Counted from the stretch's first letter, positions 3,523 through 20,461 are shown. The stretch: DNA of 22,157 nucleotides from a virus (IMGVR_UViG_3300000313_000015:1-22157); one strand, 5' to 3'. Translations and numbers: made by a program. Notes: a model not told the origin generated them from the letters alone.

Positions 3523-4911
3523 ATGCTGGCAAATGCAATGATAACAGAGAATTCATACCAGCTTTTGTATGATGCCTATACAGGGAGCGGCGGTTTTGTT
3601 GATGGTAGCTACCTGTTTCGGCATAAACGGGAGGATGATGAAGATTTTCTTAAACGTAAACGGATGGCACGGTATTCAAATTTTGTTAAAGTTATCGTTA
3701 ATGCACTGACAAATCCTATTTTTAAAAAGACGATTGTCCGGGATTTTGAAAGCAATAAGATGATGGAAGATTTTATGGATGACGTTGATGGAAAAGGCAC
3801 ACCTATCAATGTATTTGTAAAACGTGCAGCCAAGTGGGCACGTGTATATAGCAGAGTCTTTATTGTAGAAGATAATTATACTGCAGAGCAGATGGTTGGA
3901 AACAAGGAAGATGCTATGCAGAACCGCCAATTTCCATATTTATATATTGTGCGTCCAGATCAAGTCGTAGATTATACCTGCGATAAGAATGGACGCTTTT
4001 TGATGTTTTCATATAAGGTTCGTGCGAAGATGAGCAAGAACGACTTAAAAGCGAACAGTAGCTATGAGGAATGGACTTGGACACCAGAAACATGGTCTTG
4101 CAAAACGGATGATAAGTTTGTTAGTGAAGGGGAAAACAGTATTGGCATTGTGCCGGTAGTTGCGCTCTCTGCGTCCGATGAGCAGGAAGATAATCCGTTG
4201 CCAGTGCCAGACATGCTACATATAGCGCGGGCTAATCGTGATATCTATAATCGAGATAGTGAAAAGCGTGAAATCCTGCGTAATCAGTGCTTTCCTGTGT
4301 TGGTTTATCCAATGACCGTACAAATGGCAGCGCAGGCACGTCAAAAGGATGAAAATGGCAATGAAATCGGCTTGGAGATTGGTACGAATAATATGCTCAA
4401 TGTTGATGCTTCGTCCGGGGCCATGCCAGATTTCATTGCTCCACCTATGGAACCGGTCAATGTACTGCAACAAGAGATAAAGGATATCATTGATGATATG
4501 TTTCGCCAGGCGGGGCTTACCAGTGTTTTGGCTATTCAAACAAAGCAGTCCGGTGTGGCCAAGCAGTGGGATTTTGAAGAAACCACAAATATTCTAGCGG
4601 ATATGGCAGAGAATTGTGAGATGGCAGAGACCGGTATATTCCATCTGTTCGAAGCTTGGACAAAAACAGAAGTTAGAGATCTTAAAATAAAATACCCTCG
4701 TAATTTTAATATCACAGATGTTTTGGATGAGTTGGATAAGGCACAAAAAATGAAGGATCTTGCTGTAGGCGGTCCAGTCGTGGAACGTGAGATAAACCGC
4801 AAGGTCACAGAAGTTTATTTTGCTGATATCGATGATAAACGGTATGAGGAGATTACGAAAGAAATTGAAAGCATGCCGGATGATCGCAGTATGGTACAGT
4901 CTGAGGAGTAA
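3523..4911 (+). CDS. Portal protein
   Basis: The portal is a dodecameric ring at one capsid vertex through which DNA enters and leaves, and it docks the terminase and the neck. At 462 residues it fits the portal family. The N-terminal part (NSYQLLYDAYTGSGG..., residues about 8-25) and the wing region (RYSNFVKVIVNALTNPIFKK) look like SPP1 gp6/DUF4055-type portals. The C-terminal helical segment (IIDDMFRQAGLTSVLAIQTKQSGVAKQWDFEETTNI, around residue 325-360) is typical of the stem and clip. GAGGTGG at about 3509-3515 precedes the ATG at 3523. It lies between terL and the MuF-type minor head gene, the expected position. The exact portal subfamily is uncertain. Confidence 0.9.
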   Translation: MLANAMITENSYQLLYDAYTGSGGFVDGSYLFRHKREDDEDFLKRKRMARYSNFVKVIVNALTNPIFKKTIVRDFESNKMMEDFMDDVDGKGTPINVFVKRAAKWARVYSRVFIVEDNYTAEQMVGNKEDAMQNRQFPYLYIVRPDQVVDYTCDKNGRFLMFSYKVRAKMSKNDLKANSSYEEWTWTPETWSCKTDDKFVSEGENSIGIVPVVALSASDEQEDNPLPVPDMLHIARANRDIYNRDSEKREILRNQCFPVLVYPMTVQMAAQARQKDENGNEIGLEIGTNNMLNVDASSGAMPDFIAPPMEPVNVLQQEIKDIIDDMFRQAGLTSVLAIQTKQSGVAKQWDFEETTNILADMAENCEMAETGIFHLFEAWTKTEVRDLKIKYPRNFNITDVLDELDKAQKMKDLAVGGPVVEREINRKVTEVYFADIDDKRYEEITKEIESMPDDRSMVQSEE

Positions 4912-4914
4912 GCT

Positions 4915-6702
4915 ATGGCAGGAGATTTTAAACAGGGGACCTTTAAGCATGAGGTCCGGGAAATATTAAAACAATATAAAGTGGCCTATGATGCAGCTGC
5001 GGAATTGCTCATTGAAGGCATTTTGCAACGTGTGAATGATGGTGTGCCAGTCTCCAAAGCAGTTGCAGCCGCTTTGAAGGATACGGACTTTCAAGGGCAG
5101 TATCAGAAGGCTGTCACAAATGCCATATATTTAGCGGCATGTGCAGGGTTCGGTGTGCTGCCGGAGAACATTACAGATCAGGCGGCTGCAGCTATAAAAC
5201 AAAAATTATTGTCGGAGAGCTGGACACCTGACGAGATGCTGTTATCAGACCGTCTGCACACGCTGGATGTAAAGAATAAAGCTGTGCAGGTCATTCGTAC
5301 TTCAATGCAAAAATTGCAGTCTATGAAAGAAATGGCGCTCGAACTGTATGATGGTTATGCGAGTGGGAAAGGCATTGTTGTGCCGGCGAAGTTATCGCAG
5401 GAGGTTTCAAAACTTTATGAGTTGGCACTGCAGGCAGCGCGAGGTGATGCAAGCCTTGTAGAAGAAGTACGAAAACGGGCACAGTATTTGCAGAATCATG
5501 TAGATGCGTTGTCTACTGAAGGCTTGCGCGCTGCCTATAGGGATTTTGTCCAAGCATGTTGCAAAGAAAAATTAAAGGAAGGTGTGATAACAAGGGCCGC
5601 GAGGGTGGCTATACAAGAAAAGACTCGATATTATGCGGAACGTATCGCTCGGACAGAAGCATCGCGTGCCTGGTTTGATGGTTATGTTGCTGAACGGCAG
5701 GAAAATCCTGATATATGGGGATACCGCTGGCGCTTGTCTAGTCGACATCCTATCTATGATCAATGCGATGTGTGTGCGCATATGGATGTCGGATATGGTC
5801 CAGGCTTTTATCCAAAAAATAAAGTTCCCAGTATCCCGCGGCATCCACACTGTATGTGTATGCTGGAGGATGTTTTTTCATGGGAACAGGACGGAAATAA
5901 AATTCAGCCGGCAGGTGCGCGGAAATATCTTGATAGTTTAAGCGATGGGAAGAAAATGAGCCTTTTCGGTGCGGATGGATTGGAGCAATATGAAGCTGGT
6001 GCAGATTGGCAGCAACTCCTGCGTGGATGGGATGGATTTGAAAAACCGCGATCACGGCTTGACAGGAAGGACTTTGAGTTGAAGGACGTGGATAGTAATG
6101 GTAAAATGAAATCAGGGAGTGAAATATCTTTGGAGCAAGCCAAGAATCGTGATCACAAAATTGAAATTACTGATATTGCAATAGATAAGGTGCCTTATAT
6201 GAATATTCCTGGATTACCTATAGCTGTTAGTGAGACTATCCAGGCGGAGCACAAATCCTTGCTTCATGTTGCAAAAGAAAAAAATAATAGCGATGAGGTT
6301 CTATCTATCTTAACATTTGATGGTTCACGTAAAGCTGTGATTCTTGGTGATGAATTTAGTGTGGATCCTTCGAATGATTTAGAAGCGCAGAGTATATTTA
6401 TGACTGCAGGTAGAAAAGAGATTTTGTATCTGCATAACCATCCGAGTACGAATAAATTTTCTTTGGCCGATATAATGACATTTATTCGTTATGGACAGAT
6501 TGGGTTGATTTCTGTTGTTACAAACCAGGGTGAAATATATCTGTTGCATAAAACAGCAAACTATGATTATAATAAGCTTAAGAAGATATTTGGTGAGATT
6601 TATTTGCAATATAATGTTGGTCGAATTAGCCATAATGAGGCAGTAAAGCAGTTCTTGAAGTCTTGTAGTGAGGGGGGAGTATATTATGAAAAATCAAATT
6701 AA
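4915..6702 (+). CDS. MuF-type minor head protein fused to a C-terminal JAB/MPN-like domain
   Basis: This 595-residue protein has two parts. Residues about 1-325 are a minor head morphogenesis protein of the Mu gpF/SPP1 gp7 family. The signature at about 240-320 reads RIARTEASRAWFDGY, then DQCDVCAHMD, then PRHPHCMCML, with cysteines and histidines set as in metal-binding MuF domains. MuF proteins bind the portal, enter the capsid in few copies and can be injected with DNA. Residues about 430-560 look like a JAB/MPN metallopeptidase-type fold: E461 in DEVLSIL, then LHNHPS (H507, H509), S516 and D519. The H-to-D spacing is one residue shorter than in canonical JAMM (HxHx9D rather than HxHx10D), as I recall for some polymorphic-toxin JAB domains. 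The DNA of the C-terminal part looks more AT-rich than the N-terminal part, suggesting domain exchange. MuF proteins with variable C-terminal effector domains are known; activity here is inference. It starts 3 bases after the portal stop. Confidence 0.88.
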   Translation: MAGDFKQGTFKHEVREILKQYKVAYDAAAELLIEGILQRVNDGVPVSKAVAAALKDTDFQGQYQKAVTNAIYLAACAGFGVLPENITDQAAAAIKQKLLSESWTPDEMLLSDRLHTLDVKNKAVQVIRTSMQKLQSMKEMALELYDGYASGKGIVVPAKLSQEVSKLYELALQAARGDASLVEEVRKRAQYLQNHVDALSTEGLRAAYRDFVQACCKEKLKEGVITRAARVAIQEKTRYYAERIARTEASRAWFDGYVAERQENPDIWGYRWRLSSRHPIYDQCDVCAHMDVGYGPGFYPKNKVPSIPRHPHCMCMLEDVFSWEQDGNKIQPAGARKYLDSLSDGKKMSLFGADGLEQYEAGADWQQLLRGWDGFEKPRSRLDRKDFELKDVDSNGKMKSGSEISLEQAKNRDHKIEITDIAIDKVPYMNIPGLPIAVSETIQAEHKSLLHVAKEKNNSDEVLSILTFDGSRKAVILGDEFSVDPSNDLEAQSIFMTAGRKEILYLHNHPSTNKFSLADIMTFIRYGQIGLISVVTNQGEIYLLHKTANYDYNKLKKIFGEIYLQYNVGRISHNEAVKQFLKSCSEGGVYYEKSN

Positions 6703-6924: not shown

Positions 6925-7614
6925 TTAACGTGTGATTAATATGTTAGTATCAGCCATTATGAGAAGTAAGAGTGTCCATCCAATCATATAGGTTCCCCAT
7001 ATAATATTTTCTAACCAACAAACAAAAGGCCCATTATATTTAGGATGAAAAATACTGTAAGCGACAAACATGTCGCTAGTAAAAAGTAAGATACCAGTCA
7101 TAGATGCCATTGTAGCTACATGAGGAGCAAATTCTCTGTAACCCGTTGTTGCTAATGTCCATGATGACGCAGAGAGTATAAGGCCAAATACGATTGTGCC
7201 CAATTTAATCTTTTTACTATCGACATAATGTTGTAAATTATAGAATACGATAAGAAATATTACTAGAAACGGTAGAGCAAATAATTTATTTTGAAAATCG
7301 AAATTTTGATTAAATGCATAAAATATCGAAAGATAAGTGGGAATAAAAAATATTATACCTAATATAGATTTTTTATTAAAGAAACAGCAATCAGCGATAA
7401 ATGTAAAAGCAAATGCGACAATTATGTAGAAAAATGAGTTTTTGGATGGGATGTCCAGAATATAAATATAGATAGAAAAAAGAAACATTGAAGAACGAAT
7501 AATTAGTTTGACATATTGGGCAGGAAATTTATTTTGGAATTTTTTATGAAAGAAAAAAATCCAAATAGTTGAAATGGTATACACAAGCAATATAATTACT
7601 TGTAATATATTCAT
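6925..7614 (-). CDS. YhhN/TMEM86-like multi-spanning membrane protein (lysoplasmalogenase family), accessory gene
   Basis: This 229-residue protein is almost entirely hydrophobic, with about seven or eight transmembrane segments. Two motifs match the YhhN/TMEM86 family: FTFIADCCFF (D75) within a helix and GILLFTSDMFVAYSIF (D181) near the C-terminus. These are the positions of the two conserved acidic residues of the family. Characterised animal members (TMEM86) hydrolyse the vinyl-ether bond of lysoplasmalogens, lipids that many Negativicutes and other anaerobes make. It is encoded against the late operon, with a good ribosome binding site (AGGAGG read on the minus strand at about 7622-7630, 7-8 bases before the start). 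The orientation and AT-rich composition mark it as a moron or lysogenic-conversion gene. The function in a phage is unknown; change of host membrane lipid is a guess. Confidence 0.7.
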   Translation of the reverse strand: MNILQVIILLVYTISTIWIFFFHKKFQNKFPAQYVKLIIRSSMFLFSIYIYILDIPSKNSFFYIIVAFAFTFIADCCFFNKKSILGIIFFIPTYLSIFYAFNQNFDFQNKLFALPFLVIFLIVFYNLQHYVDSKKIKLGTIVFGLILSASSWTLATTGYREFAPHVATMASMTGILLFTSDMFVAYSIFHPKYNGPFVCWLENIIWGTYMIGWTLLLLIMADTNILITR

Positions 7615-7691
7615 ATTTTGAGCCTCCTACTAATGTGGATGTTTCGAGATAAAAAAATGAAAACCCTTTAATTCTAAAATTTTTGTAAAAG

Positions 7692-7735
7692 AAAAAGCTT
7701 CCTTACAGCGGGGATGCCAAGTAAGGAAGTTTTTC
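7692..7735 (-). terminator. Intrinsic terminator between the two minus-strand accessory genes
   Basis: The 9-bp perfect stem is CTTCCTTAC (7698-7706) and GTAAGGAAG (7721-7729) with a 14-base loop. On the minus strand it is followed by CTTTTTC, directly after the stop of the 73-residue gene at 7748. T residues on the plus-strand side as well (TTTTT at 7730-7734) make it potentially bidirectional. It means the YhhN-like gene downstream must rely on readthrough or its own promoter in the 80 bases before it. Confidence 0.75.
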
Positions 7736-7747
7736 CGATAATGGGAC

Positions 7748-7969
7748 TTATGTATTTTTTGCAATAACGGCACCGAGAACGGCACCGACAATGCCAGCGG
7801 TAATGACCTCTCCTTCGGAATGCGAATCGGATTTGTATTCACGGTGGTGTGGATGAGGCGGTGGATAATCAAATGGGTGAGCTTCAGCAGCAACCCCGCC
7901 GAATATGCTTGTAGCTAATAGGGTGCAAAGAGTCAATGACAGAATTTTTTTTGATTTTATAGTTAACAT
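7748..7969 (-). CDS. Small exported His-rich protein with a glycine-zipper-like tail
   Basis: This 73-residue protein starts with a clear signal peptide: positively charged MLTIKSKK, hydrophobic ILSLTLCTLLATSIFGGVA, and a likely cleavage after AEA (residue 30). The mature part is Pro/His-rich (HPFDYPPPHPHHREY, 31-45), followed by a polar stretch and a small-residue hydrophobic segment ITAGIVGAVLGAVIA (56-70) like a glycine zipper. The histidines could bind a metal such as zinc, nickel or copper; this is inference. The ribosome binding site AGAGGCGG lies just upstream on the minus strand. It is the first gene of the minus-strand accessory block, and an AT-rich region suited to a promoter (TATATT/TATAAA elements around 8015-8032) lies behind it. 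It resembles small secreted proteins of didermal Firmicutes, but I cannot name a family. Confidence 0.65.
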   Translation of the reverse strand: MLTIKSKKILSLTLCTLLATSIFGGVAAEAHPFDYPPPHPHHREYKSDSHSEGEVITAGIVGAVLGAVIAKNT

Positions 7970-8248: not shown

Positions 8249-9088
8249 ATGAAGAAAAATGTTCTGATTGATTTGAAAGAAAAGAGGATAATTAAGTCAA
8301 TCTTATTTGATTTACAGCGCTTTGATGATCCAGGGGATGGTGGCGGTGGTGATGTTACACCGAGAAGTCAGGAAGATATCCTTACAGCCCTGCAGGGATT
8401 AGATGAAGGTGATTCGTATATTGCTGGATTAAATCACATTCTGTCCGAAGGTAGTAAAACGCAGGGAGAACTCACTAAGCTCAAGTCAAAAATTACTAAA
8501 TTGACGAAAGCCAGCGAAGGTATTACAAAAGAGCGTGACTCTGCTGTCGGCAATTTTAATAAATTGCTCGATTTTAATGGGATTCCGGTCGATACGGAGG
8601 ACTTGGACGCGGCGCTGGAGGAATTACGTGAGCAGCAGAAGACGAAAAATAAGGGTGAAGTTGATGTTGCGCTTTTACAGAGTAAAATTAATGATTTGAT
8701 GCGTAAAAGCAAAGGAATTGAAAAAGAACGTGATGATAATAAGAGCTTGGCGGATAAGCGTTTATCACGTATTCAGAGTATTATTCGTGATTCTTCGGTT
8801 GAAAATGCTTTGAAAAATAGTGGAGCTTTGGAATATGAAGCGCTTGTTCCAATTTTCCGTGATAGGGTGCAAATTCTTGATGATGAAACACCGGTGTACC
8901 CACTGGATGACGGAAGCCATGTAACGGTTGCGGAAGGTGTGAAGATGTTTTTTGAGAAACATCCACGGCTTTTGGCCAATAACCAGAATCCAGGCGCTGG
9001 GTCTGGTGGAGGTGCTCCGGGTAAGGTGGATTTCAACAAAATGTCCCAAAAGGAATATGAAAAGTTCCGCAAAGAGGGCAAAATTTAA
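8249..9088 (+). CDS. Capsid scaffolding protein with internal FDLQRF tag
   Basis: The scaffold guides coat protein assembly into a procapsid and is then removed. This 279-residue protein has a scaffold-like composition: a long, highly charged coiled-coil region (about residues 70-190, rich in K, E, D, L), a Gly-rich linker (GAGSGGGAPGK near 250-262) and a short basic C-terminal helix (NKMSQKEYEKFRKEGKI), the usual coat-binding end. It resembles the GP20-like minor structural/scaffold family. FDLQRF followed by D lies at residues 20-26, behind a 19-residue leader. TGGAGG at about 8233-8238 supports the ATG at 8249, and no alternative start lies between it and the tag. The coat gene follows after 26 bases. 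The tag suggests cleavage by the Prp-like protease at 10287-10619. Confidence 0.85.
   Translation: MKKNVLIDLKEKRIIKSILFDLQRFDDPGDGGGGDVTPRSQEDILTALQGLDEGDSYIAGLNHILSEGSKTQGELTKLKSKITKLTKASEGITKERDSAVGNFNKLLDFNGIPVDTEDLDAALEELREQQKTKNKGEVDVALLQSKINDLMRKSKGIEKERDDNKSLADKRLSRIQSIIRDSSVENALKNSGALEYEALVPIFRDRVQILDDETPVYPLDDGSHVTVAEGVKMFFEKHPRLLANNQNPGAGSGGGAPGKVDFNKMSQKEYEKFRKEGKI
8306..8326 (+). other. FDLQRF|D N-terminal tag in scaffold
   Basis: Residues 20-26 of the scaffold read FDLQRFD. The same hexapeptide occurs near the N-termini of the coat (9130) and tail tube (12150) proteins. It resembles the NLQFFA leader cleaved by Prp in Firmicutes L27 and in 80alpha capsid and scaffold proteins. 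The likely cut is between F and D. Confidence 0.75.
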
Positions 9089-9114
9089 CTTTTAGAATGT
9101 GAGGAGATAAAATC

Positions 9115-10284
9115 ATGAATAAAATTAATTTTGATTTGCAAAGATTTGATATTTCGGGTACCAATAATACGTTCCTTACTCCGGTGCAGGTGGCGCGTGA
9201 GGCATTGATGATCTTGAAAAACAACACGATAATGGGACAGCTTGTCAATCGTGATTTTGAGAATGAATTTGCTGAAGCTGGTGATACTGTTATGGTTCGC
9301 CGTCCAGCGCATTTCAAGGCGGATATGTTTGATCCTAAGACAGGTATTAAGGTTCAAGATGTTAATGAGGGCAGAGTTCCGGTAATCCTTGATACTATTA
9401 CAGATGTTTCGTTCCCTATTAGTTCAAAAGAACTCACTCTTGATATTCAGGATTTTTCCACGCAGCTTATTGCGCCAGCTGTTACAGCGATTGAACAGGA
9501 TGTTGATGAGCGGCTTTGCCAGTGCTATAAGGATGTACCGTATTATGTTGGTACACCGGGCAACACGCCAAATAGTGTAAGCAACATTACAGCAATCCGC
9601 AGAGAAATGAATGATAATAAGGTGCCAATGGATGGCCGTGTGTGCGTTCTTGATGCGGCTGCCGATGCAAAGCTTTTGGAACTTAGTGCCTTTAATAATG
9701 CCGGTTCGACTGGCGAAACAAATGCTATTATCAACGCGCAGCTTGGTCGTAAATTCGGTTTTGATTTTTACATGGATCAGAATATTTGCCAGCATAATAA
9801 TGGAACACTGTCGAAATCGGCAACAATGAAGATTGCTGCTGAGGTCAAGGCCAATGTGAATACCGCGGTATTCACAGACGCTACACTCGTAGGTAACTTT
9901 AACAAAGGCACTATTTTTAAGTTTGCAGGTGATGATCGTCCATATGTTGTTATGAAAGATGCTGAAGCAACCAGCAATACGGTAACAGTAAGCTTCTATC
10001 CGGCAGCTCGTCAGACATTTGCAGCTAATACGGGAGTAGAAGTTATCGATAGCCATACGGCTAGCTTGGCATTCCATCGCAATGCATTTTCTCTTGTTAC
10101 GCGTCCACTCTCAAAGCCGATGGGGATCTCTTCGGAGCAATATGCCATCATCAATGATAACGGTCTTTCAATTCGTGTCGTGTTCTCCTATGACATCAAT
10201 AAAAAGCAGGATATATGTTCAATTGATATGCTAAGTGGTGTTCAGACCATGATTCCGGAACTCGCTTGCCGTGTTCTTGGCTGA
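9115..10284 (+). CDS. Major capsid protein, P22 coat-like
   Basis: This 389-residue protein is the most likely major coat subunit. After the N-terminal tag MNKINFDLQRFD come segments like those of P22 gp5-type coat proteins: LTPVQVAREALMILKNNTIMGQLVNRDF (about 21-48), AGDTVMVRRP, then LDIQDFSTQLIAPAVTAIEQDVDERL (around 108-134), and a C-terminal region expected to close the HK97 fold. GAGGAG at about 9101-9106 precedes the ATG. It sits directly after scaffold and directly before the Prp-like protease, whose ATG comes 2 bases after the coat stop. FDLQRF at residues 6-11 with D12 suggests removal of the first 11 residues during assembly. The gene also contains a perfect 22-bp palindrome at 9855-9876. 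Confidence 0.9.
   Translation: MNKINFDLQRFDISGTNNTFLTPVQVAREALMILKNNTIMGQLVNRDFENEFAEAGDTVMVRRPAHFKADMFDPKTGIKVQDVNEGRVPVILDTITDVSFPISSKELTLDIQDFSTQLIAPAVTAIEQDVDERLCQCYKDVPYYVGTPGNTPNSVSNITAIRREMNDNKVPMDGRVCVLDAAADAKLLELSAFNNAGSTGETNAIINAQLGRKFGFDFYMDQNICQHNNGTLSKSATMKIAAEVKANVNTAVFTDATLVGNFNKGTIFKFAGDDRPYVVMKDAEATSNTVTVSFYPAARQTFAANTGVEVIDSHTASLAFHRNAFSLVTRPLSKPMGISSEQYAIINDNGLSIRVVFSYDINKKQDICSIDMLSGVQTMIPELACRVLG
9130..9150 (+). other. FDLQRF|D N-terminal tag in major capsid protein
   Basis: Residues 6-12 of the coat protein read FDLQRFD, in the same register as in the tail tube protein (MNKIN before it here, MEQIK there). The different DNA sequences of the copies show that the peptide, not the DNA, is conserved. 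Confidence 0.8.
9855..9876. repeat. Perfect 22-bp palindrome inside the capsid gene
   Basis: Eleven bases (TGTGAATACCG) are followed by their exact reverse complement, centred between 9865 and 9866 on CCGCGG. It encodes about VNTAVFT of the coat protein. It can form a hairpin in the mRNA or bind a dimeric protein on DNA. A perfect palindrome of this length is not expected by chance in 22 kb. Confidence 0.65.
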
Positions 10285-10286
10285 TT

Positions 10287-10619
10287 ATGGTACGGTATAA
10301 AAAACTGAAATATGACAGCAGGATTGGTCTAGAGATTGTTGGACACGCTTCGGAATACTCAGAGCATGAAGGGAAAAATATTGTCTGTGCCGCTATATCG
10401 ACTGTATGTGATATGGTGGCCATAGGCTGTATGCAATATGATCCATCGACTGAGGTAAAGCAGGACAATGGTTATATGACGATTACTTGCGAGATTATGC
10501 CGGAGACCGTAGCAATCATTTCAGCGGCCATTATGGAACTGTCTAGGATAAAAGAAAATTACTCATATTGTTTTGAAGGAGGAAATTTGGATGGAAGTAA
10601 AAACGGTAACCTTATGTAA
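10287..10619 (+). CDS. prp: Prp-type cysteine protease (L27/capsid leader processing family)
   Basis: The product is a 110-residue protein of the Prp (DUF464) family, usual length about 105-115. The signature is plain: EIVGHASEY with H20, and NIVCAAISTV with C34, the family's His-Cys dyad. The spacing (14) is two residues longer than in S. aureus Prp (H22/C34), and the usual Asp before IVC is Asn here. Prp cleaves the N-terminal leader of ribosomal protein L27 in Firmicutes and, in S. aureus, the similar leaders of phage 80alpha capsid and scaffold. Here the gene lies directly behind the coat gene, whose product, like scaffold and tail tube, carries FDLQRF(D/A). The inferred role is phage-encoded trimming of these proteins. 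The ATG at 10287 is 2 bases after the coat stop and has no clear ribosome binding site, so translation is probably coupled and low. The next gene overlaps it by 29 bases. Confidence 0.87.
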   Translation: MVRYKKLKYDSRIGLEIVGHASEYSEHEGKNIVCAAISTVCDMVAIGCMQYDPSTEVKQDNGYMTITCEIMPETVAIISAAIMELSRIKENYSYCFEGGNLDGSKNGNLM

Positions 10620-10806
10620 GGATAATGAGACAATTATTGTGAATGAAAGTGATTTGAAGAATTTTGAAAAACTTGGTTATTTGGTAAAAGCTGTAGAGGC
10701 AGAAGGAAAGGTACCGGACCACTCCTCCCCTCCAGATGATAATAAGCCGGATGATACTGATGCTGGTAAGGGAAAAGGGAAGGCAAAGCAAACCGGGGCG
10801 GTATAA
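10591..10806 (+). CDS. Small charged phage protein of unknown function
   Basis: This 71-residue protein has a folded-looking N-terminal half (MEVKTVTLCKDNETIIVNESDLKNFEKLGYLVKAV, 1-35) with two short strands and a helix, and a disordered, charged C-terminal half (SSPPDDNKPDDTDAGKGKGKAKQ). The ATG at 10591 follows GGAGG at 10578-10582; the TTG at 10573 is less likely. It overlaps the end of the protease gene by 29 bases. Small proteins of this kind, with an EKLGY motif, are common between coat and connector genes in Firmicutes phages, where they may be head accessory proteins. I cannot assign a function. Confidence 0.65.
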   Translation: MEVKTVTLCKDNETIIVNESDLKNFEKLGYLVKAVEAEGKVPDHSSPPDDNKPDDTDAGKGKGKAKQTGAV

Positions 10807-10809
10807 ATT

Positions 10810-11298
10810 ATGGAACTGAAAATTGATTTTGATGCTCAAACATTGCTTGCGGCAGCTGAAAAAGCTCCAAAAGAGACCGCGCAAGAAGTCAGACGTGCTT
10901 TGCTGGAATCATGCAGAGTAGTGCAGCGTACGGCGCGGCGGCAGCATTCTTTTAAATCTCGTACGGGTGCCTTGGAAAGAGCTATTGAGTATCGTGTTGA
11001 GCGCATGTCGTTAGAGGGTGTCATATGGATTCGCCCAGATGTAGCGCCTTATGGTGGTTATGTGCATAATGGGACAGGAATATTTGCTGGACATTCGCCA
11101 TGGAAGGTGACCCCTACGAAAAAGAAGATGTTGCGTTGGTCTAAAGATGGGAAGTTCTTCTTCAGTAAGGGGCATGAGATACAAGGGCAGCCAGCAGATG
11201 AATTCCTTTATAGCTCTGCAGAAAAGAACCGTCAAAAAATCAATGATATATTTGCGAGACATATGGATGAGGCCATGCGGGCCGCTGATTTAAAATAG
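10810..11298 (+). CDS. HK97 gp10-like head-tail/tail completion protein
   Basis: This 162-residue protein has the mark of the gp10-like family: an N-terminal helix with LLAAAEKAPKETAQEVRRALLESCRVVQRTARRQ, then SRTGALERAIEYRV (the SGxLrxSi-type turn), then APYGGYVHNGTG (the Y..yvE/hGTG motif) and a W-K segment before the last helix. Members of this family act at the neck or tail completion, between connector and tail terminator. It starts 3 bases after the stop of the previous gene. The ribosome binding site is weak, so coupling is likely. Its place in the order, before the connector-like gene, is slightly unusual, as connectors often come first. Confidence 0.85.
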   Translation: MELKIDFDAQTLLAAAEKAPKETAQEVRRALLESCRVVQRTARRQHSFKSRTGALERAIEYRVERMSLEGVIWIRPDVAPYGGYVHNGTGIFAGHSPWKVTPTKKKMLRWSKDGKFFFSKGHEIQGQPADEFLYSSAEKNRQKINDIFARHMDEAMRAADLK

Positions 11299-11311
11299 AG
11301 GTGGTGATAAC

Positions 11312-11695
11312 ATGTACTTTAATGCAGAGGCTGTCCGGGATTTGCTTTTGAAAGACAGGATTACGGATGAAGATATCCAGGAAAGTACAGATTATGTCAA
11401 TGGAGTGGCAGTTCGTCTCAATGTGAGTCCAGACAGAATAAGAGTGCCAGTTGCATATCCTATACAGCAGCTGGCACTTTTTTATGCCCTTATGGTGTGT
11501 GCGCGGAATCAGTCTATTATGGTGGATGGACGGGATATGGAGGCTGGCGATGATCCTTATGAGAAAAAAAGGGCCATATATGAAAAGGAATACCAACGCT
11601 GGGAGGGGCGTATCACAGCTGAAACTTTTACAGGATTGTCGGGACGGGACACTGGCGAGGCTATACCGCTCACTACGAAAGTGAGGCGTAGCTGA
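11312..11695 (+). CDS. Probable head-tail connector/adaptor protein
   Basis: This 127-residue protein is helical. Residues 1-65 (AVRDLLLKDRITDEDIQESTDYVNGVAVRLNVSPDRIRVPVAYPIQQLALFYALMVCAR) look like the multi-helix adaptor fold of gp6/gp15-type head-tail connectors. The C-terminal part (YEKEYQRWEGRITAETFTG) is also helical, with an extended tail that could embrace the portal. GAGGTGGTG at about 11299-11307 gives a strong start at the ATG 11312. The stop and the next start overlap by one base (TGATG). The function is inferred from size, helix pattern and position between gp10-like and tail-terminator-like genes. Confidence 0.6.
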   Translation: MYFNAEAVRDLLLKDRITDEDIQESTDYVNGVAVRLNVSPDRIRVPVAYPIQQLALFYALMVCARNQSIMVDGRDMEAGDDPYEKKRAIYEKEYQRWEGRITAETFTGLSGRDTGEAIPLTTKVRRS

Positions 11696-12120
11696 TGCAG
11701 CTGATGTGGTTTCCTTTTGTGATGAGTACAATCAAATACCTTCAAAGTATTCCGGAAGTCAGTACAAAATACAATATAGGAATCCTTGGGAATTTGCCGA
11801 CAGGGGATAAATTATCCTCAATTGAGATTGACTGGGATAATGAATCTGGGGCAGCGGATGTGGTAAATACTGTAGGCGAAGTGGTTCTCTATTTGCTCAT
11901 AAAGAATCGTACAGATGGAACTGATATGATGCAAGCATATCAGGAGCAATATCGGATACAGAATCTTATTTTGGAGAATATGCGGCTCTTACATGATTAT
12001 ATTTTAAGGAATCTTAAGACCGCGGTGAAGATATCTGCAGCGGGGGTGGCGCCTCTTGGTAAGCTTACCCGTCCATATTATAGCAATCAGCTTGTTATTG
12101 TGTTTGAATGGAAAAAATAG
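11695..12120 (+). CDS. Probable tail terminator (tail completion) protein
   Basis: This 141-residue protein sits directly before the tail tube gene, the usual place of the tail terminator, which caps the finished tube and joins it to the head. It has a mixed alpha/beta pattern compatible with that fold: a first helix (MSTIKYLQSIPEV), strands (SIEIDWDNES, VNTVGEVVLYLLIKN) and a C-terminal strand (NQLVIVFEWKK). I see no diagnostic motif. GAGG at 11685-11688 can serve the ATG at 11695; the ATG at 11722 (MSTIKYLQ) is a possible alternative because conservation seems to begin there. One-base overlap with the upstream gene suggests coupled translation. Confidence 0.55.
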   Translation: MQLMWFPFVMSTIKYLQSIPEVSTKYNIGILGNLPTGDKLSSIEIDWDNESGAADVVNTVGEVVLYLLIKNRTDGTDMMQAYQEQYRIQNLILENMRLLHDYILRNLKTAVKISAAGVAPLGKLTRPYYSNQLVIVFEWKK

Positions 12121-12134
12121 AAAGAGGGATGAAA

Positions 12135-13337
12135 ATGGAACAAATAAAATTTGATTTGCAACGCTTTGCCACGCATGGCTTGGTTACACAAAAAAGTGCA
12201 GACAATCTTGATGTTGGGGCGGGTGAGTGGTCATTTTGCAATTTTGATACAGAAGCGAATCCACGAGGTACGTTTTTTTCGATGGGTTATTGTTCAGCGG
12301 CTACATTGGCCTGGAACATCAATTCGATAGTGAAACGTGATGCAACCCGTGGTACGCGCGAAAAGATTGCAGAGGCAGAGACGCAGCGTGATGTTGACCT
12401 TACGATTACGATGGATGAGAGTGATCCGCTCAAATATGCTTTGGCTATGTTTGGTAAGGCATCTATTAAGCATATCGTGGCGATGAATATCAACCAAGAA
12501 TTTACTGTATCTCCAGGGGATGAGATTTTTCTTTTGGTTGACGGCAGTACGGCCGCATATAATTATACGGATCTTATTATCAAGAAAAAGAATTCGGTGG
12601 CAGCTACTATTGGTGTTGCTAGTTTTGATAAACAGGGCGGTATGGTGGCCTCTGCAGGTACGGTGACTTCGGGAGGAAGCTATACAGGTACTACAGCAGA
12701 TGACTATTATGTGAAAGTTTTTAAGGCGAATACTACGAGTGGGACAATTACGGATGCAGAATTCCAATGGAAGAAGGGGGCGGCAGGTACTTATAGTTCA
12801 GCCATTGTAGTTACAGGGGAGGCGCAGACACTGGATGAAGGTGTAACTGTGAAATTTGCGGCCGGAAAATCGGGCTTGGATTTTGCTCTTGGGGATGAAT
12901 GGAAAATAACGGTCGCCCCAGCTGGTGGTACCTTATCCATTGGCAAGGATTATGCTGCAGATAAGGTTGATGTGCAGAACGGGAAGATTCGTTTTTCGTT
13001 GGATTCATCTATAGGGATGGATGAGGTTGTTATCGTTAGTTGTAAGGTGCCGGAACAGTACATTCCGCGTATTTATTCGGGTGTGAAAAAGAAAATTGAG
13101 GGTGCTCTTCGGTTTGAATATGATCCGACACATGGACGTAATAAGGCATATCTTTTTTATCATGTATCGATTGCTCCAACTGGTGATGATGCACTAATTG
13201 GGGAAGATTGGGGTAGCAGGCAAATCAAGTGCTCAGTTCTTGCGGACCCGAGCCATGCAGATCCTGATAATGTAGAAAGCCGTTATTATCGTGTGGATTA
13301 TCCAGGTAATGTTTCGGGCGTATTGGTTGATAGATGA
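12135..13337 (+). CDS. Tail tube (major tail) protein with FDLQRF tag and inserted beta domain
   Basis: This 400-residue protein should polymerise into the tail tube around the tape measure. Its position before the gpG/gpGT pair and tape measure fits. The core looks like a tail tube fold in two parts (about 1-150 and 270-400). Between them lies an all-beta insertion (about residues 170-265) with YTGTTADDYYVKVFKA and AEFQWKKGAAGTYSSAI, like domains displayed on virion surfaces. Three starts are in frame (12108, 12129, 12135). I choose 12135 because AGAGGG (12123-12128) is then well spaced and because MEQIKFDLQRFA aligns residue for residue with the coat N-terminus MNKINFDLQRFD. The tag predicts removal of 11 residues by the Prp-like protease, with Ala instead of Asp after the cut. 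Confidence 0.85.
   Translation: MEQIKFDLQRFATHGLVTQKSADNLDVGAGEWSFCNFDTEANPRGTFFSMGYCSAATLAWNINSIVKRDATRGTREKIAEAETQRDVDLTITMDESDPLKYALAMFGKASIKHIVAMNINQEFTVSPGDEIFLLVDGSTAAYNYTDLIIKKKNSVAATIGVASFDKQGGMVASAGTVTSGGSYTGTTADDYYVKVFKANTTSGTITDAEFQWKKGAAGTYSSAIVVTGEAQTLDEGVTVKFAAGKSGLDFALGDEWKITVAPAGGTLSIGKDYAADKVDVQNGKIRFSLDSSIGMDEVVIVSCKVPEQYIPRIYSGVKKKIEGALRFEYDPTHGRNKAYLFYHVSIAPTGDDALIGEDWGSRQIKCSVLADPSHADPDNVESRYYRVDYPGNVSGVLVDR
12150..12170 (+). other. FDLQRF|A N-terminal tag in tail tube protein
   Basis: Residues 6-12 of the tail tube read FDLQRFA. The Ala after F makes it the copy closest to the L27-type leader (NLQFFA). Its presence on a tail protein as well as on the two head proteins is the unusual point. 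Confidence 0.8.
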
Positions 13338-13405: not shown

Positions 13406-13921
13406 ATGGCAGAAAATGAAATGGATATCTTGGTTTCATCGATTGGCCAAGATATTATACTTGCGGGGGAGAAGCTAACTATCAAGCCATATAGTTGGGC
13501 AAATACCATAAAAATGGCGAGACCGCTGGCTGTAGTTATGAATGCATTGTTTTTGAATTATAAGGCATTGGGACAGTTGCTGGATGATATAACTCCTGAG
13601 GAAGAAAATGTGAAGGTGAAAAAGGAAAAAAAATCCGAAACAACGCGAAAAAAAGTTAATGGAGACAATGTTTTCCATAAGTGTATGAAATTGTCTGATT
13701 TTATTAGTACTTTACAGAACGCAGATGAGCTTATAGATGCCATTGCAGAGATGATGTCTATGGCTGTGGGTAAGGAAAAAGCGTTTGTGATTGCTCTTTT
13801 GCCAGATGATGCATTTACACTTGGACATACAATATATGAGGTAAATAAGGCTTTTTTTACCAAACGGCTGGGGCCGATGCTGATGGAAATGGAAAAGACA
13901 GAGGAGAAACAAGAGAAGTAA
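13406..13921 (+). CDS. Tail assembly chaperone, gpG-like
   Basis: This 171-residue protein lies between tail tube and tape measure, where tail assembly chaperones are found. It is acidic overall with a Lys-rich internal linker (KVKKEKKSETTRKK, about 70-83) and helical on both sides. It is the unshifted product; about 20 codons before its stop is a run of seven T residues where ribosomes can slip into the -1 frame and make a longer gpGT-like form. These proteins coat the tape measure during tail assembly and are absent from the virion. GAGAGGAG at about 13391-13398 gives a strong start. There is no strong sequence motif; the assignment rests on position and the frameshift layout. Confidence 0.75.
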   Translation: MAENEMDILVSSIGQDIILAGEKLTIKPYSWANTIKMARPLAVVMNALFLNYKALGQLLDDITPEEENVKVKKEKKSETTRKKVNGDNVFHKCMKLSDFISTLQNADELIDAIAEMMSMAVGKEKAFVIALLPDDAFTLGHTIYEVNKAFFTKRLGPMLMEMEKTEEKQEK

Positions 13922-14160
13922 CGCCATATGAAGTGTTGCAAAAGTTGATCTCTCACGGGCATACGAAACAAGAAATTATGCAAGGATATAGTATGCCGGA
14001 GATTAAACTGTTTTTTGAAAAAGCGATGGCGGAAGAATTTGCAGCCCGAGCAGATATGATTGAGGATGTAGCTGCCGGTATTGGTGGAACTTTTGGTGGA
14101 TTCAAGGAATTACGGCCGATGTTGCAAGAGTTGAGAGGTGATAGGCGTGGCAGGAAATAA
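13849..14160 (+). CDS. gpT-like extension made by -1 frameshifting (gpGT)
   Basis: The -1 frame is open from 13849 to the stop at 14158-14160 and overlaps the end of the gpG-like gene. It has no ATG and no ribosome binding site of its own; the only start-like codon is TTG at 13933. The content is typical for a T domain: TPYEVLQKLISHGHTKQEIMQGYSMPEIKLFFEKAMAEEF, then a Gly-rich GGTFGGFKEL. If the slip occurs at 13852-13858, the fused protein is 151 residues of gpG plus 100 residues of this frame, 251 in total. The T part recruits tail tube subunits to the chaperone-coated tape measure. It overlaps the tape measure start by 14 bases. Confidence 0.7.
   Translation, partial: GFFYQTAGADADGNGKDRGETREVTPYEVLQKLISHGHTKQEIMQGYSMPEIKLFFEKAMAEEFAARADMIEDVAAGIGGTFGGFKELRPMLQELRGDRRGRK
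13852..13876 (+). promoter_or_regulatory. Programmed -1 frameshift signal: T7 slippery site plus downstream hairpin
   Basis: The heptamer T TTT TTT (13852-13858) is in the correct phase of the gpG frame (GCT TTT TTT ACC). After a 6-base spacer comes a short GC-rich hairpin, CGGC (13865-13868), loop TGGG, GCCG (13873-13876). Slippery site, spacer length and hairpin fit the known design of -1 frameshift signals in tail chaperone genes. Confidence 0.65.
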
Positions 14161-17100
14161 TACGATTGAAGTCCATATTACCGCGGAAAATGAAAAATTT
14201 GTCGAGAAGATGCGTCAGGTCGTTGACGCAATCGGAGAAGCAAAAGGCAAATCTGAACGTGCTTCGACAAGTTTTGGTGGGTTTGGCTCAAGTCTTGCAA
14301 ACATCAGTATGATTGTTACAGGTGCTTATGCGGGACTGTCAATGCTAAAAACAGCAATCGATGGTACCATTGGCTCTGTCATGAAATATAACATGGATAT
14401 GGAGAACAATGAGGCCGCGTTTGAAGTGTTTTTGGGAAATTCTCAGCTTGCCACACAGTATCTCAATGACTTGAAAAAGATAGCTGCAGATACACCGTTT
14501 GATTTACCGGGTGTCACTGCAGCTGGCAAAAAATTGTTGGCGTTTGGATTTGATGCGCAGACATCACTCAAGATGTTGCGTACTATCGGTGATGCGTCGG
14601 CTGGCATTGGCTTGGGGACAGAGGGAATCGACCGTATTACCTTGGCTCTTGGACAAATCAAGGCGAAGGGCACTGTCATGGGAGATGAGATTCTTCAGCT
14701 CACAGAAGCAGGCATTCCAGCGCAAGAAATATTGGCAGAAAAACTGCATCTTACTGCGGATCAGGTAAGGAATATCGGCGATGCTGGCATTGATGCCGAT
14801 ACTGCTATAGAAGCCTTGGTTGAAGGCATGGATGATAAATTTGGTGGTATGGCTGAAAAACTATCTGATAAGATGATGGGGCTTCTTTCGACAATCAAAG
14901 ATAATGTTATGAATACAGGCGGTTTCCTTATGGAGCCGCTTTTTGAATCTGTTGAGAGAGGCCTAGCCAAAGTACGCGATGCTTCGGATAAGCTGACTGC
15001 TGCAATAAATGGGCAAGGGGATATTGACGAAAATGCCGGTGTTCTGCGTGTTATCGTAAAGATACAGACAGGTATAGAGGAAGCGACGAATCTCTTCGTG
15101 AAGTTTACCGAGCTTTTCGGTGCTTACGATGACGACGGCAAGTTTTATTTTTCGGAAGAAGCATTGGAATCATTTTCAAAAGCGGGTGCCTTGTTAGAGC
15201 AAGCCGGCGGTTTTATGTTGGATATCGGCGATGCCATGATATCTATGTCACCGGTTGCAGGAGAAGTATTGGATCGTCTTGGTGGATGGTTGTCTGTTCT
15301 TATTCGCATTGCCGATACAATTGTAAACGCAGTAAAAGGTGGAGCTGACGAAGCGAATACATCCTTTGGGACAACAAAATATATTGTTGATCTTATTGTG
15401 GATGCCTTAGTAGGTTTTTTTGTGCTGGAAAAAATAATAACGATGGCGCAAGCATTACAGACAGCATTTACGCTTGTGCGGGAAACCGTTGTAGCTGTAC
15501 GGACTGCAATCAAAGAAGCATCTGTAGCGCAAGCGGTTCTTAATGCACTTACGGGAGCAATGAAGGGCCCGGTAGGTTTGGCGTTGGCAGCAGCGGGGAC
15601 AGCTACTGCGATTGGTGCGGGTTATGCCATCCGGAAATCATTGGATGGTATGGGTGATGCGCAACCATCCAATGGGGGTAAGGCCGAAGAAAATTATCAG
15701 GCTCTTATGCAGAAGCTCAGTAATCAAAAAAATGCAAAATTGCCATATCCGGGGAAAAAGCCAAGTGCGCTAGAGGGCGGTGATAATAAGAAAGCCGTAC
15801 AGGCAGCCCAAGCGGCTATGAAAGACCAAGTCCAGTATTTGAAGGATAACCTGGCAGATCAGTTGGAATATTTCAAGGACAAAATGGATGAAATTGAACT
15901 GGAATTTAAGCAAGGTGCACTTTCCATCCAAGAGTACTATGAGCAAAAAGAAGCAGTTAAGCAGGATGAGACACAAGCTAGAATTGATGAAATCCAAGCT
16001 GAAATTGCTACAGTCGAGAGTGCGCCGTATGAACATGAATCGGATCGTCAGAAGGAACTTAGGAGCCTGAACCATGAACTCAATAAATATACCAGGCAAC
16101 TTGAAAAAATTACACAAACGCAGAAAGAAATTGCAGATGTTACATTGCAGGCCAAACAAGAAGAGGCTCGTGTTAAAGCTCTCGCAGCCATGGGCGGCCC
16201 TCTGGATAGCAAAGGCCAGCCGCAAGTATTTAATAACGATGATAAGTCAGTCGTTCAACAAGAGGCACAAATTCAGCAACTTCTCGAGGAATGGGGCAAA
16301 GGCAAGGGAATAGATGCATCCTATGTCGATGCTGTTATGAATTCATCTTTGAAATACGGTGTCGACCCTCGTATGGCACTTGCATTGATGCAGCAAGAAT
16401 CGGGTGGTAATCAGGATGCAGTGTCTCCAGCTGGAGCTATTGGCCTTATGCAACTTATGCCGGAGACTGCAGCGTCGCTTGGAGTAGATCCATACGATGC
16501 TATCCAAAATATTGATGGTGGAATCCATTATCTAGCTGATCAGTTGGTCGAATTTGGTGGAGATTTTACAAAAGCAGTAGCTGCTTATAATGCAGGCGCT
16601 GGAAAAGTGCAGCAATATAATGGCGTCCCACCATATAAGGAAACCCAAGATTACGTTAAATCCGTGCAGGATAATTATGGAACTATGGGATATATTCCAG
16701 ATTTACGCACCATAGCGGGAGCTTTACCAAAAGCGTATGCAGATGCCTATGCACAGGCAGATATTATCAATAAGCAGAGCCAGCTTACAGGCCGTGGTTA
16801 CGCTGCACCATCTGGAAATACATATCATGGTTTGGATACGCGAGTTATTGATGTAAACACGGAAGACGAAAATGTCACCAATGTATCGAATATGCAGGAC
16901 ATCTTCAAAAATGCCCTCAATGGGGTAGCCAAGGACTTTTTCGAACAGACAGGTCAAAAATTGATGCTTACGGGTGGAGCGGAAACAGGGTACCATGCTC
17001 CTGGCGAATGGGGACATGAAGGTGGCTGGAAAGCAGATATAGTAAATGTCGGTGGATTTAGAGATTTATTTGTAAAGTTGGCCGAGAAATATGGAATCGC

Positions 17101-19219
17101 TGTTGGTAACGAAGGAAATCATTATGACTTGTCTGGTGCGCAAGGCGGTGTGGGTGGCACTCAAATTACATCGAATGCAACCGGAACGCTGGATCAGCAG
17201 CGAGATATTAGCCGTATAGATGCCAGACAGCTTGTCAATAATACCACTTTGCATAATGCCGATTCTGCTGAGGCGTTTGCAAAATATGAAAAAGATATTC
17301 TAGACAAATTAGGCATTGATTTGAAATTGGCACAGACCATGTCGAAGGGCATGCAGCAGGAAATGGCAATTGAGGCTATTAAAACTGCCCAGGAAATGCG
17401 TAAATATGGATCAAGCGATAATGCAGAAACTAGAGATAAGTTGCAGGCATTGTATAAAGAAAATATTTATGGCATTCAAGTCAAATATGTTAAGCAAGAT
17501 TTGGAACTTAATGTCAAGGATTTACAGGATTCAGCAACTAAGATGGGATATCGGATTTCACTTGGCCTGTCCGACGCTAAAGAAGCGGTTGAAAAATATT
17601 TTGGCGACTTTGTTGATGGGATAGATGGCACTACCAAAAAGGTCAATGCTGCCGGGATGCCGAAATTGGATCTTGTTGGCAATCAAATTCATGCATTGCA
17701 GGAGGCAATGGTACATTACCAGAACAATGGTGGGCTAAAAGAATACTGGTCAATTAAAGAAGAAATCGATAAAGTTTTCTCTACGCTTGAGAATATTTAT
17801 AAAGGCTGGATTCAGCGTATTGATGATTATGCAGCTTTCCGGACGAATCTCGTAGAAAACAGCTACACTATGACTACGGGACAAAAAGATGACGCGAAAA
17901 AAGTTATTGCGGCTAAGAAAGCCAAGGATGAAGGGGTTGTACAAAAGGCCGAACTGCAAGCATATCGTAATTTATTGGCAGGAGATAGGAGAGAACTATC
18001 CAAACAGCAGGAAATTTCGCGTAATAGCAAAGATGGTAGTCCAGAAAAGCAGGATGCAGATTCGATGGTGTCTGTACTGAATGCGCGGATTCAAAAATTG
18101 CAACTTATCACGATTCCTGGTCTGCAGGAATCCATACTTCTGAATAAACAACTCGAAAAGATGCCTACGCTCTTGGAAAAGGTGCGACAATCCAGTAAGC
18201 AGGCTTTGGAAGATGGATTGGTTACATTTTTGACGGATGGTATTGACCAGGCTGACAATCTGTTGGAAGCATTGGGAAATTTGCTTACTTCTATTTTAAA
18301 ATCCATACAGAAAGTTTTTGCAGAGTCCATAACGAAAAATTTGATGAATCAATGGTTTCCTGTGCATGACATGGATCCATTGCAGAATACGGGATATAAT
18401 CCGTCTTTTGGTTATACTGGAGATATTACGAAGCCATTTAATAAGTCCGGGCCGTCCTTTTTGTCAGGTAACAATAATGCCCAGAATACAGGGTATGATG
18501 ACCACTTTGGTTATTCTGGGAATCTTCTGGATGGTTTTACACAACAGACAGGACAGCTTAGTGGTGTATTAAGTAAATCTGTAGGCTATGCATCTACATT
18601 TATTTCGCAGGGTAATGCGTTTTTGCAGTCGATTGACGAGTTTGCAATCCATGCAATCACAACGCTACAATCTGCAGCAACAAAGCTTAGTGGGGCATCG
18701 GGTACAACATCGGCTTCAGGTACGGCTTATACATTTGCAGTTGGGAATCTTGCAGATGTGGCGCGTAAAGCTACGGGTGGAGCAATAGATGGTCCAGGGA
18801 CAGAGACTAGTGACAGCATACCAATAATGGCATCCAAAAAGGAATATATGGTACGGGCAGCAGCACATAAGAAATATGGAACGCCGATGATGAATGCCCT
18901 CAACAATGGCAGACTGTATGAATATCTACAGAACACACTTGGACGGATTAACAATGGAACATTTGGTAACATTCGTGTGAAAGTGCCTAAGTTTGCACGT
19001 GGTGGTGCTATTGGCAGTGCTGGATCATCTGCAGCGAATCGGTTTACCGCTGATTTTGGTGCAAATATCAGTACCCCAGTAAATCTTACCAATAACACGT
19101 ATGTGGATGGGCATCGTATTTTTGACGCATATGGGCAAGGCCTGGTTCGTAGCGAAGTTAGAAAAGAGATGGTGAAAAATGCGAAACTTCATTCTGAAAT
19201 AGGCAAAAGAATGCGATAG
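14147..19219 (+). CDS. Tail tape measure protein with lytic transglycosylase and M15-like peptidase domains
   Basis: This 1690-residue protein sets tail length and is ejected through the tail at infection. The N-terminal tape-measure domain lies at about 85-250 (FLGNSQLATQYLNDLKKIAADTPFDLPGV..., MGDEILQLTEAG). Hydrophobic segments near 413-500 may insert in the host membrane. A long coiled coil fills about 548-684. An SLT transglycosylase domain at about 722-845 has the catalytic Glu E751 in QQESGG and the motifs GLMQLMP and AAYNAG. A second enzyme-like domain at about 935-1000 has H950, H957, D964 and H992-x-D994, in the pattern of M15-type zinc DD-peptidases. The C-terminus carries GGAIDGPGTETSDSIPIMASKKEYMVRAAA, common in tape measures. 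By the usual 0.15 nm per residue the tail could reach about 210-250 nm. The start is GTG 14147, placed by AGAGGTG at 14134-14140; GTG 14138 overlaps that site. Confidence 0.92.
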   Translation: MAGNNTIEVHITAENEKFVEKMRQVVDAIGEAKGKSERASTSFGGFGSSLANISMIVTGAYAGLSMLKTAIDGTIGSVMKYNMDMENNEAAFEVFLGNSQLATQYLNDLKKIAADTPFDLPGVTAAGKKLLAFGFDAQTSLKMLRTIGDASAGIGLGTEGIDRITLALGQIKAKGTVMGDEILQLTEAGIPAQEILAEKLHLTADQVRNIGDAGIDADTAIEALVEGMDDKFGGMAEKLSDKMMGLLSTIKDNVMNTGGFLMEPLFESVERGLAKVRDASDKLTAAINGQGDIDENAGVLRVIVKIQTGIEEATNLFVKFTELFGAYDDDGKFYFSEEALESFSKAGALLEQAGGFMLDIGDAMISMSPVAGEVLDRLGGWLSVLIRIADTIVNAVKGGADEANTSFGTTKYIVDLIVDALVGFFVLEKIITMAQALQTAFTLVRETVVAVRTAIKEASVAQAVLNALTGAMKGPVGLALAAAGTATAIGAGYAIRKSLDGMGDAQPSNGGKAEENYQALMQKLSNQKNAKLPYPGKKPSALEGGDNKKAVQAAQAAMKDQVQYLKDNLADQLEYFKDKMDEIELEFKQGALSIQEYYEQKEAVKQDETQARIDEIQAEIATVESAPYEHESDRQKELRSLNHELNKYTRQLEKITQTQKEIADVTLQAKQEEARVKALAAMGGPLDSKGQPQVFNNDDKSVVQQEAQIQQLLEEWGKGKGIDASYVDAVMNSSLKYGVDPRMALALMQQESGGNQDAVSPAGAIGLMQLMPETAASLGVDPYDAIQNIDGGIHYLADQLVEFGGDFTKAVAAYNAGAGKVQQYNGVPPYKETQDYVKSVQDNYGTMGYIPDLRTIAGALPKAYADAYAQADIINKQSQLTGRGYAAPSGNTYHGLDTRVIDVNTEDENVTNVSNMQDIFKNALNGVAKDFFEQTGQKLMLTGGAETGYHAPGEWGHEGGWKADIVNVGGFRDLFVKLAEKYGIAVGNEGNHYDLSGAQGGVGGTQITSNATGTLDQQRDISRIDARQLVNNTTLHNADSAEAFAKYEKDILDKLGIDLKLAQTMSKGMQQEMAIEAIKTAQEMRKYGSSDNAETRDKLQALYKENIYGIQVKYVKQDLELNVKDLQDSATKMGYRISLGLSDAKEAVEKYFGDFVDGIDGTTKKVNAAGMPKLDLVGNQIHALQEAMVHYQNNGGLKEYWSIKEEIDKVFSTLENIYKGWIQRIDDYAAFRTNLVENSYTMTTGQKDDAKKVIAAKKAKDEGVVQKAELQAYRNLLAGDRRELSKQQEISRNSKDGSPEKQDADSMVSVLNARIQKLQLITIPGLQESILLNKQLEKMPTLLEKVRQSSKQALEDGLVTFLTDGIDQADNLLEALGNLLTSILKSIQKVFAESITKNLMNQWFPVHDMDPLQNTGYNPSFGYTGDITKPFNKSGPSFLSGNNNAQNTGYDDHFGYSGNLLDGFTQQTGQLSGVLSKSVGYASTFISQGNAFLQSIDEFAIHAITTLQSAATKLSGASGTTSASGTAYTFAVGNLADVARKATGGAIDGPGTETSDSIPIMASKKEYMVRAAAHKKYGTPMMNALNNGRLYEYLQNTLGRINNGTFGNIRVKVPKFARGGAIGSAGSSAANRFTADFGANISTPVNLTNNTYVDGHRIFDAYGQGLVRSEVRKEMVKNAKLHSEIGKRMR
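18383..18526 (+). repeat. Short tandem duplication in the tape measure C-terminal region
   Basis: QNTGYNPSFGYTGDI (18383-18427) recurs as QNTGYDDHFGYSGNL (18482-18526), offset by exactly 99 bases (33 codons). Two imperfect copies are visible, rich in Gly, Tyr and Asn. Confidence 0.6.
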
Positions 19220-20136: not shown

Positions 20137-20388
20137 ATGTTGTTGAGCCAAATAGAAAAGCTTTTACAACGAATTAGGAACAATCCTAAGACTGTTCGGT
20201 TTGAAGAACTAGAAAAAGTTTTACAAAAATCCGGTTTCCGGTGCCGACAGCCAAAAGGCGGTTCCAGCCATCATACGTATACGAAAGGAGGTAATCCGAT
20301 GATACTGACGGTTCCTTATAAAGAGCCGTATGTAAAAGAAATTTATGTTAAATTGGTTATTAAAGCATTGGAAGAAAAAGATGGATAA
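20137..20388 (+). CDS. hicA: HicA-type toxin (mRNA interferase)
   Basis: This 83-residue protein belongs to the HicA family, small basic proteins with a double-stranded-RNA-binding-like fold that cut mRNA in a ribosome-independent way. The family motif is seen in PKGGSSHHTYTK (residues 39-50), with the catalytic His in SSHHTY (H45 or H46), followed by the strand MILTVPYKEPY and the C-terminal helix VKLVIKALEEK. The catalytic His is present, so the toxin is probably active. AAGGAAGGAG at 20125-20134 precedes the ATG. It comes first, with the antitoxin gene 73 bases downstream, the classical hicAB order. An operator-like palindrome lies just upstream. The pair may stabilise the prophage or act against other phages. 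Confidence 0.88.
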   Translation: MLLSQIEKLLQRIRNNPKTVRFEELEKVLQKSGFRCRQPKGGSSHHTYTKGGNPMILTVPYKEPYVKEIYVKLVIKALEEKDG

Positions 20389-20461
20389 GGTGAGTAGGCC
20401 ATTCTCGGTCTGCGGTTTATCTAGTTTATTATAAATATCATGCTAGAAAGAGGTGAAAAAT

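Follow-up and report, generated by a model that had tools for sequence, protein, structure and literature searches.

Gene content of the head and tail cluster

The window, that is, the whole stretch of 22,157 nt that was analysed, is a 22 kb virus record with a head and tail gene cluster. Genes for a terminase (2233-3501), a portal-like protein (3523-4911) and a minor head protein (4915-6702, whose matches to head-morphogenesis PHROGs are confined to about residues 230-335) are followed by those for a scaffold, the major coat protein and a Prp-family cysteine protease, then by connectors, the tail tube, a chaperone-like protein (13406-13921) and the tape measure (14138-19219). Three side observations concern this cluster and its surroundings. 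The minor head protein has a C-terminal extension with EILYLHNHPSTNKFSLADI, a JAMM metalloprotease-like motif for which Pfam gives no match. Two genes on the minus strand lie inside the head cluster (6925-7969), one for a YhhN-family membrane protein (6.9e-11), the other for a small signal-peptide-like protein, and a HicA and HicB toxin-antitoxin pair is found past the tape measure gene (20137-20827).

The scaffold (8249..9088, plus strand; 279 aa) matches PF06810 only weakly (8e-6, under the cut-off of that model), and is otherwise identified by its place before the coat gene. The P22-type major coat protein (9115..10284, plus strand; 389 aa) is recognised by PF11651 (P22_CoatProtein, 2.5e-53) and phrog_283, and the tail tube (12108..13337, plus strand) by phrog_807 (2.4e-26) and NF052337 (7.7e-28). 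Translation of the tail tube likely starts at 12135, the third ATG, which is preceded by a better-spaced GAGGG and gives an 11-residue leader (MEQIKFDLQRF), versus 20 residues from 12108.

The first-pass annotation had reported the same hexapeptide near the N-terminus of these three structural proteins, followed by D, D and A, and an exact count confirms it: a six-frame scan of the window gives exactly three occurrences of FDLQRF, only in the scaffold, coat and tail tube, proteins unrelated to one another, and each time near the N-terminus. The scaffold tag (8306..8323, plus strand; residues 20-25) ends a 25-residue leader followed by DDPGDG, the coat tag (9130..9147, plus strand; residues 6-11) ends the leader MNKINFDLQRF, followed by DISG, and the tail-tube tag (12150..12167, plus strand; residues 15-20 of the ORF starting at 12108) is followed by ATHG. 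The predicted cut falls between F and D in the scaffold and coat, and between F and A in the tail tube. The three copies are written in codons unlike each other (TTTGATTTACAGCGCTTT, TTTGATTTGCAAAGATTT and TTTGATTTGCAACGCTTT) that differ synonymously, which argues against a recent DNA duplication. Compared with leaders of the phage 80alpha type, all three proteins carry xLQxF, and the next residue is D, D and A where a small residue would be expected. Across the loci that were fetched, many of them picked because a Prp is present, the motif [ND][LMI]QxF with a small residue, D or N next to it is enriched 37-fold in the first 48 residues of proteins relative to the remainder.

The Prp protease encoded after the coat gene

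The protease gene (10287..10619, plus strand; 110 aa) starts two bases past the coat stop, with an alternative TTG start at 10266. That a Prp-family protein with a His-Cys dyad directly follows the coat gene, as the same annotation had stated, was upheld by profile, residues and fold. The protein scores 37.7 bits against PF04327 (MEROPS C108; curated cut-off 27) and matches phrog_4478, labelled 'peptidase'. Its dyad, H20 and C34, lies within G19-H20-A21 and V33-C34-A35, G29 and S38 are kept, and an alignment of 21 Prps from phages and hosts shows no variation at G19, H20, A21 and C34. Its AlphaFold model (pLDDT 85) has nine PDB matches below 1e-3, all of them Prps; 7kld (S. aureus Prp in a covalent complex) comes first, and with 2g0j, 7jvs, 1s12 and 2idl it makes up the best matches, at TM of about 0.6-0.7.

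The window Prp thus shares with the host Prp that trims ribosomal protein L27 (MEROPS C108) the fold, the His-Cys dyad, the G-H-A and C-A-x-x-S motifs and the xLQxF leader. Unlike that enzyme, it is encoded in a head cluster, its His-Cys spacing is 14 instead of 12, Asn takes the place of the S. aureus Asp31, and it stays far under every NCBIfam L27-Prp equivalog cut-off (best 24.3 bits versus 122-225, 10 models matched). Nor does it adjoin rpmA, the L27 gene: its neighbour is the coat gene, and no L27-like ORF was found beside it.

The S. aureus enzyme has a P1' site with room for small residues only, its mobile loop touches the P3 Gln through Gly29 and Asp31, and the D31A mutant is inactive (PMC9405229). 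As Asp31 is needed there, the Asn of the window Prp could mean altered or lost activity. Asp31 is nevertheless only a typical residue and no defining criterion of Pfam or MEROPS for the Prp family. Its equivalent, which holds the clamp loop, is replaced by Asn in the window, in its relatives L002, L004 and L005 and in the Fontainebleau lineage, and the replacement is read as a variant feature because other phage Prps share it. Purifying selection is indicated by Prp dN/dS values of about 0.30 (window versus L002) and 0.13 (L004 versus L005), with a constraint weaker than on the coat.

Prp genes, tags and loop types in other phages

Close relatives keep the arrangement. Prp follows the coat gene and the tags are retained both in L002 and L003 (coat 96% and Prp 91% identical to those of the window) and in L004 and L005 (coat 73%, Prp only 38% identical), L005 being a 5.5 kb contig with only coat and tube in view. 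Their coat tags read F[DN]LQRF before D and their tail-tube tags F[DN]LQRF before A, while the scaffold tag is FDLQRF before D in L002 and YDLQRF before D in L004. Despite 38% identity, H20, C34, G19, A21 and S38 are common to the window and L004 Prps. Among 110 loci fetched by similarity to the P22-type coat, the coat is tagged in all three that have a Prp (two lineages) and in 0 of the 107 without, three of which carry NLQLF before A as a scaffold tag. The coat of L006, 45% identical to that of the window and lacking both tag and Prp, begins MANTLLTP right where the window coat resumes after its leader. A search of genome contigs found no close prophage of the window phage, the nearest terminases are those of faecal contigs, and a plasmid search returned only distant coats. 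At 15753-19921 of L150, near the L004 contig end, two ORFs with an almost identical N-terminus (MSFFRKRGKKWYYTIEIGTGS) were seen, which are provisionally taken for prophage-end integrases.

Prp genes were also found, by tblastn with related Prps, in Enterococcus phage phiFL3A, Lactococcus phages PLgT-1 and TP712, several Oenococcus phages, Brochothrix phage BL3, Lactobacillus phage Lj965, and Latilactobacillus and Acutalibacter phages. Scaffold, coat and major tail protein are all tagged in phiFL3A, phiS11, phiS13, Krappator27, BL3, Lj965 and Latilactobacillus phages, and only scaffold and coat in PLgT-1, TP712 and Fontainebleau. Phages with phrog_4478 proteins (phiFL3A gp45, Lj965, PLgT-1, Oenococcus phiS11, BL3, Acutalibacter phage Fontainebleau) thus resemble the window in having a head-cluster Prp, a tagged scaffold and coat and, mostly, a tagged major tail protein. 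They differ in gene order, the Prp gene of phiFL3A-type phages lying between the portal or minor head gene and the scaffold gene, versus after the coat gene in the window. They mostly combine A after the cut with the canonical loop, Fontainebleau being window-like with D and a longer loop. A phage-encoded Prp whose neighbours encode tagged scaffold, coat and tail proteins is therefore widespread in Bacillota phages and not unique to the window, and the survey for prp beside tagged coat genes proposed at the outset revealed this co-occurrence in many phages and in two unrelated coat families. These Prps are mostly annotated just as 'peptidase' (phrog_4478). The open-access literature searched gave no description of the phage Prp and tag pairing; the main Prp publications from 2015, 2017 and 2022 lay outside this search, and an earlier mention is possible.

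The R before F had been regarded as part of a specificity shift. This was rejected: R-F tags also occur in PLgT-1, in Oenococcus phages, in Lj965 (where three proteins have DLQRF before A) and elsewhere, so that the feature is not specific to the window. The L27 leader of the Lj965 host species is given as LEALKLF'AHHK (PMC9405229).

Tags also exist where Prp genes do not. The control, Staphylococcus phage 80alpha, has a tagged scaffold and coat (NLQFF and NLQHF, both before A) and no Prp match among its genes. As in the window, its N-terminal xLQxF leaders are cut after F by a Prp-family enzyme (PMC5744158, PMC9405229); unlike in the window, this is the host enzyme, the residue after the cut is A, and the tags are confined to scaffold and coat. 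For phi13, a major tail protein with a tag has been reported (PMC5744158). Tagged loci lacking a Prp also include L045, L049, L050, L284 and L360, all with A after the cut.

To avoid a choice based on Prp, an HK97-type coat family was fetched by coat, regardless of Prp, giving 44 distinct loci for which upstream DNA is available: 35 with coat tag and Prp, one with a tag and no Prp (NIQFF before A) and eight with neither. Prp is thus present in 35 of 36 tagged versus 0 of 8 untagged loci (p 5e-8, a statistic that ignores relatedness). The untagged coats begin at about the residue following the tag position. As untagged homologous coats start just past the tag in two unrelated coat families, the tag is best seen as an add-on.

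The residue after the cut varies with the clamp loop of the neighbouring Prp. A survey of 97 distinct Prp loci, which depends on scans with degenerate patterns and on short proteins, found a His-Cys spacing of 12 with Asp three before Cys both in the 14 L27-adjacent Prps and in phage Prps with A, S, G, T or N following the tag. A spacing of 14 or 15 goes with a scaffold or coat whose P1' is D in the window, L002, L004, L005, the Fontainebleau lineage and L124/L203, and Asn replaces Asp in all these long-loop Prps except L124/L203. Counted by lineage, P1' is D in 6/6 long-loop versus 0/29 short-loop cases, a statistic that ignores relatedness; on a tree built without the loop, three changes are needed for each trait. 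A stricter rule, D only with a His-Cys spacing of at least 14, fitted this first survey and was relaxed when the coat-based sample gave other loops (S31, GIDRACAA, VCHGIS), E at P1' and exceptions.

In the HK97-type sample, where the canonical loop was scored by direct pattern, tags with P3 Gln combine an acidic P1' with a changed loop in 12/12 cases and a small P1' with the canonical loop in 9/9, and tags with P3 R have an acidic P1' and a changed loop in 9/9. The exceptions are L308, L309 and L317 (P3 H or K, canonical loop yet acidic P1'), L353 (P3 K, changed loop, small P1') and L338 (canonical loop with scaffold tag FLQIF before E). Another enzyme variant is seen in L320, L324, L329 and L353, whose Prp relatives have an unusual and far shorter loop at the active site (e.g., GHAENPVACHGISAIS); the coats next to them are tagged with NLRLF before E or NLKQF before G. 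Over 75 phage Prps, 47 are canonical with a small P1', 24 changed with an acidic P1', and 3 + 1 discordant. The loop type changed at least four times on supported branches, and a single origin of the changed loops is rejected (p-AU 0.0004); independent pairs go in the same direction or show no difference, with too few loop changes to give a sign test any power. On coats with P3 Gln, D after the cut was seen only beside a changed-loop Prp. This covariation fits the S. aureus structure, in which P1' is limited in size and the P3 Gln bonds to the loop (PMC9405229). That enzyme and tag change together suggests that each phage's protease may be matched to its own virion proteins. It is the D after the cut that is the distinctive part of the window system, although it recurs in other phage lineages.

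Predicted processing of the leaders by the phage or host enzyme

From sequence, gene order, co-occurrence, covariation and fold, we infer a cleavage, its timing and its purpose: it is quite probable that the phage's own Prp trims the three leaders, between F and D on scaffold and coat and between F and A on the tube. The protease, which is probably co-translated with the coat, would recognise the [FY][DN]LQRF leader and remove it during virion assembly. Its clamp loop, two residues longer than that of the L27-trimming host-type Prp and with Asn for Asp31, may be what allows an acidic P1' to be accepted. Of the leader-processing circuit with altered specificity that had been postulated for this phage, the circuit itself and the D after the cut are thus supported, by co-occurrence and loop covariation respectively, and the R before F is not special. 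Head-tail coupling, raised at the same time, would be consistent with the shared tag.

A serious rival is that the phage Prp is mainly a tag-binding assembly chaperone, whose cleavage is weak, absent or unimportant, since 80alpha tolerates uncleaved coat and scaffold and not a leaderless scaffold: the phage is viable without these cleavages, and the N-terminal sequence of its scaffold is essential (PMC5744158). More generally, the reason for a cleavable leader in phages is an open question (PMC5744158). Hints of Prp acting as an L27 chaperone (PMC9405229) and the Asn of the window Prp in place of the essential Asp31 also speak for the chaperone reading. Nevertheless, the dyad and its surrounding residues are retained between the window and L004 Prps, and the covariation extends past the cut to P1' on its leaving side, which would be superfluous for a pure leader binder. 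A chaperone without significant cleavage is therefore considered unlikely.

Somewhat less likely still is that the host Prp cuts the phage tags, leaving the phage enzyme redundant or otherwise employed. 80alpha relies on such cutting with no Prp gene (PMC5744158), and the other tagged, Prp-less loci would be compatible with it. However, all of these have A after the cut, as have all the L27 precursors examined, the S. aureus enzyme is size-limited at P1' (PMC9405229), and coats with P3 Gln were seen with D only beside a changed-loop Prp.

The phage Prp might instead act on host L27 and alter ribosomes in infection, L27 being the known cellular substrate of the family. This idea, present in the first-pass annotation as an interference with host L27 processing, found no support and is very improbable: the gene sits in a head cluster amid its tagged targets, the protein reaches 24 bits where the L27-Prp equivalog cut-offs are at least 122, and the predicted site is D-tolerant while the same L27 precursors all have A at P1'. 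Finally, although the motif is short, a chance or recently duplicated hexapeptide with an incidental Prp neighbour is scarcely conceivable, given exactly three copies with differing codons, their retention in relatives at 38% Prp identity, and the co-occurrence of Prp and tag in two unrelated coat families.

The known case of phage processing by Prp depends on the host enzyme. A phage with its own matched Prp would offer a protease that can be removed without touching ribosome assembly, and the loops and cut sites found in nature a ready map of Prp specificity, which is relevant because of studies that address the host Prp as a target for antibiotics. For the phages themselves, there is about an even chance that Prps and leaders form self-contained modules that have repeatedly diverged from the host L27 site via clamp loop, P3 and P1'; these may be host-orthogonal pairs, and they could coordinate head and tail assembly.
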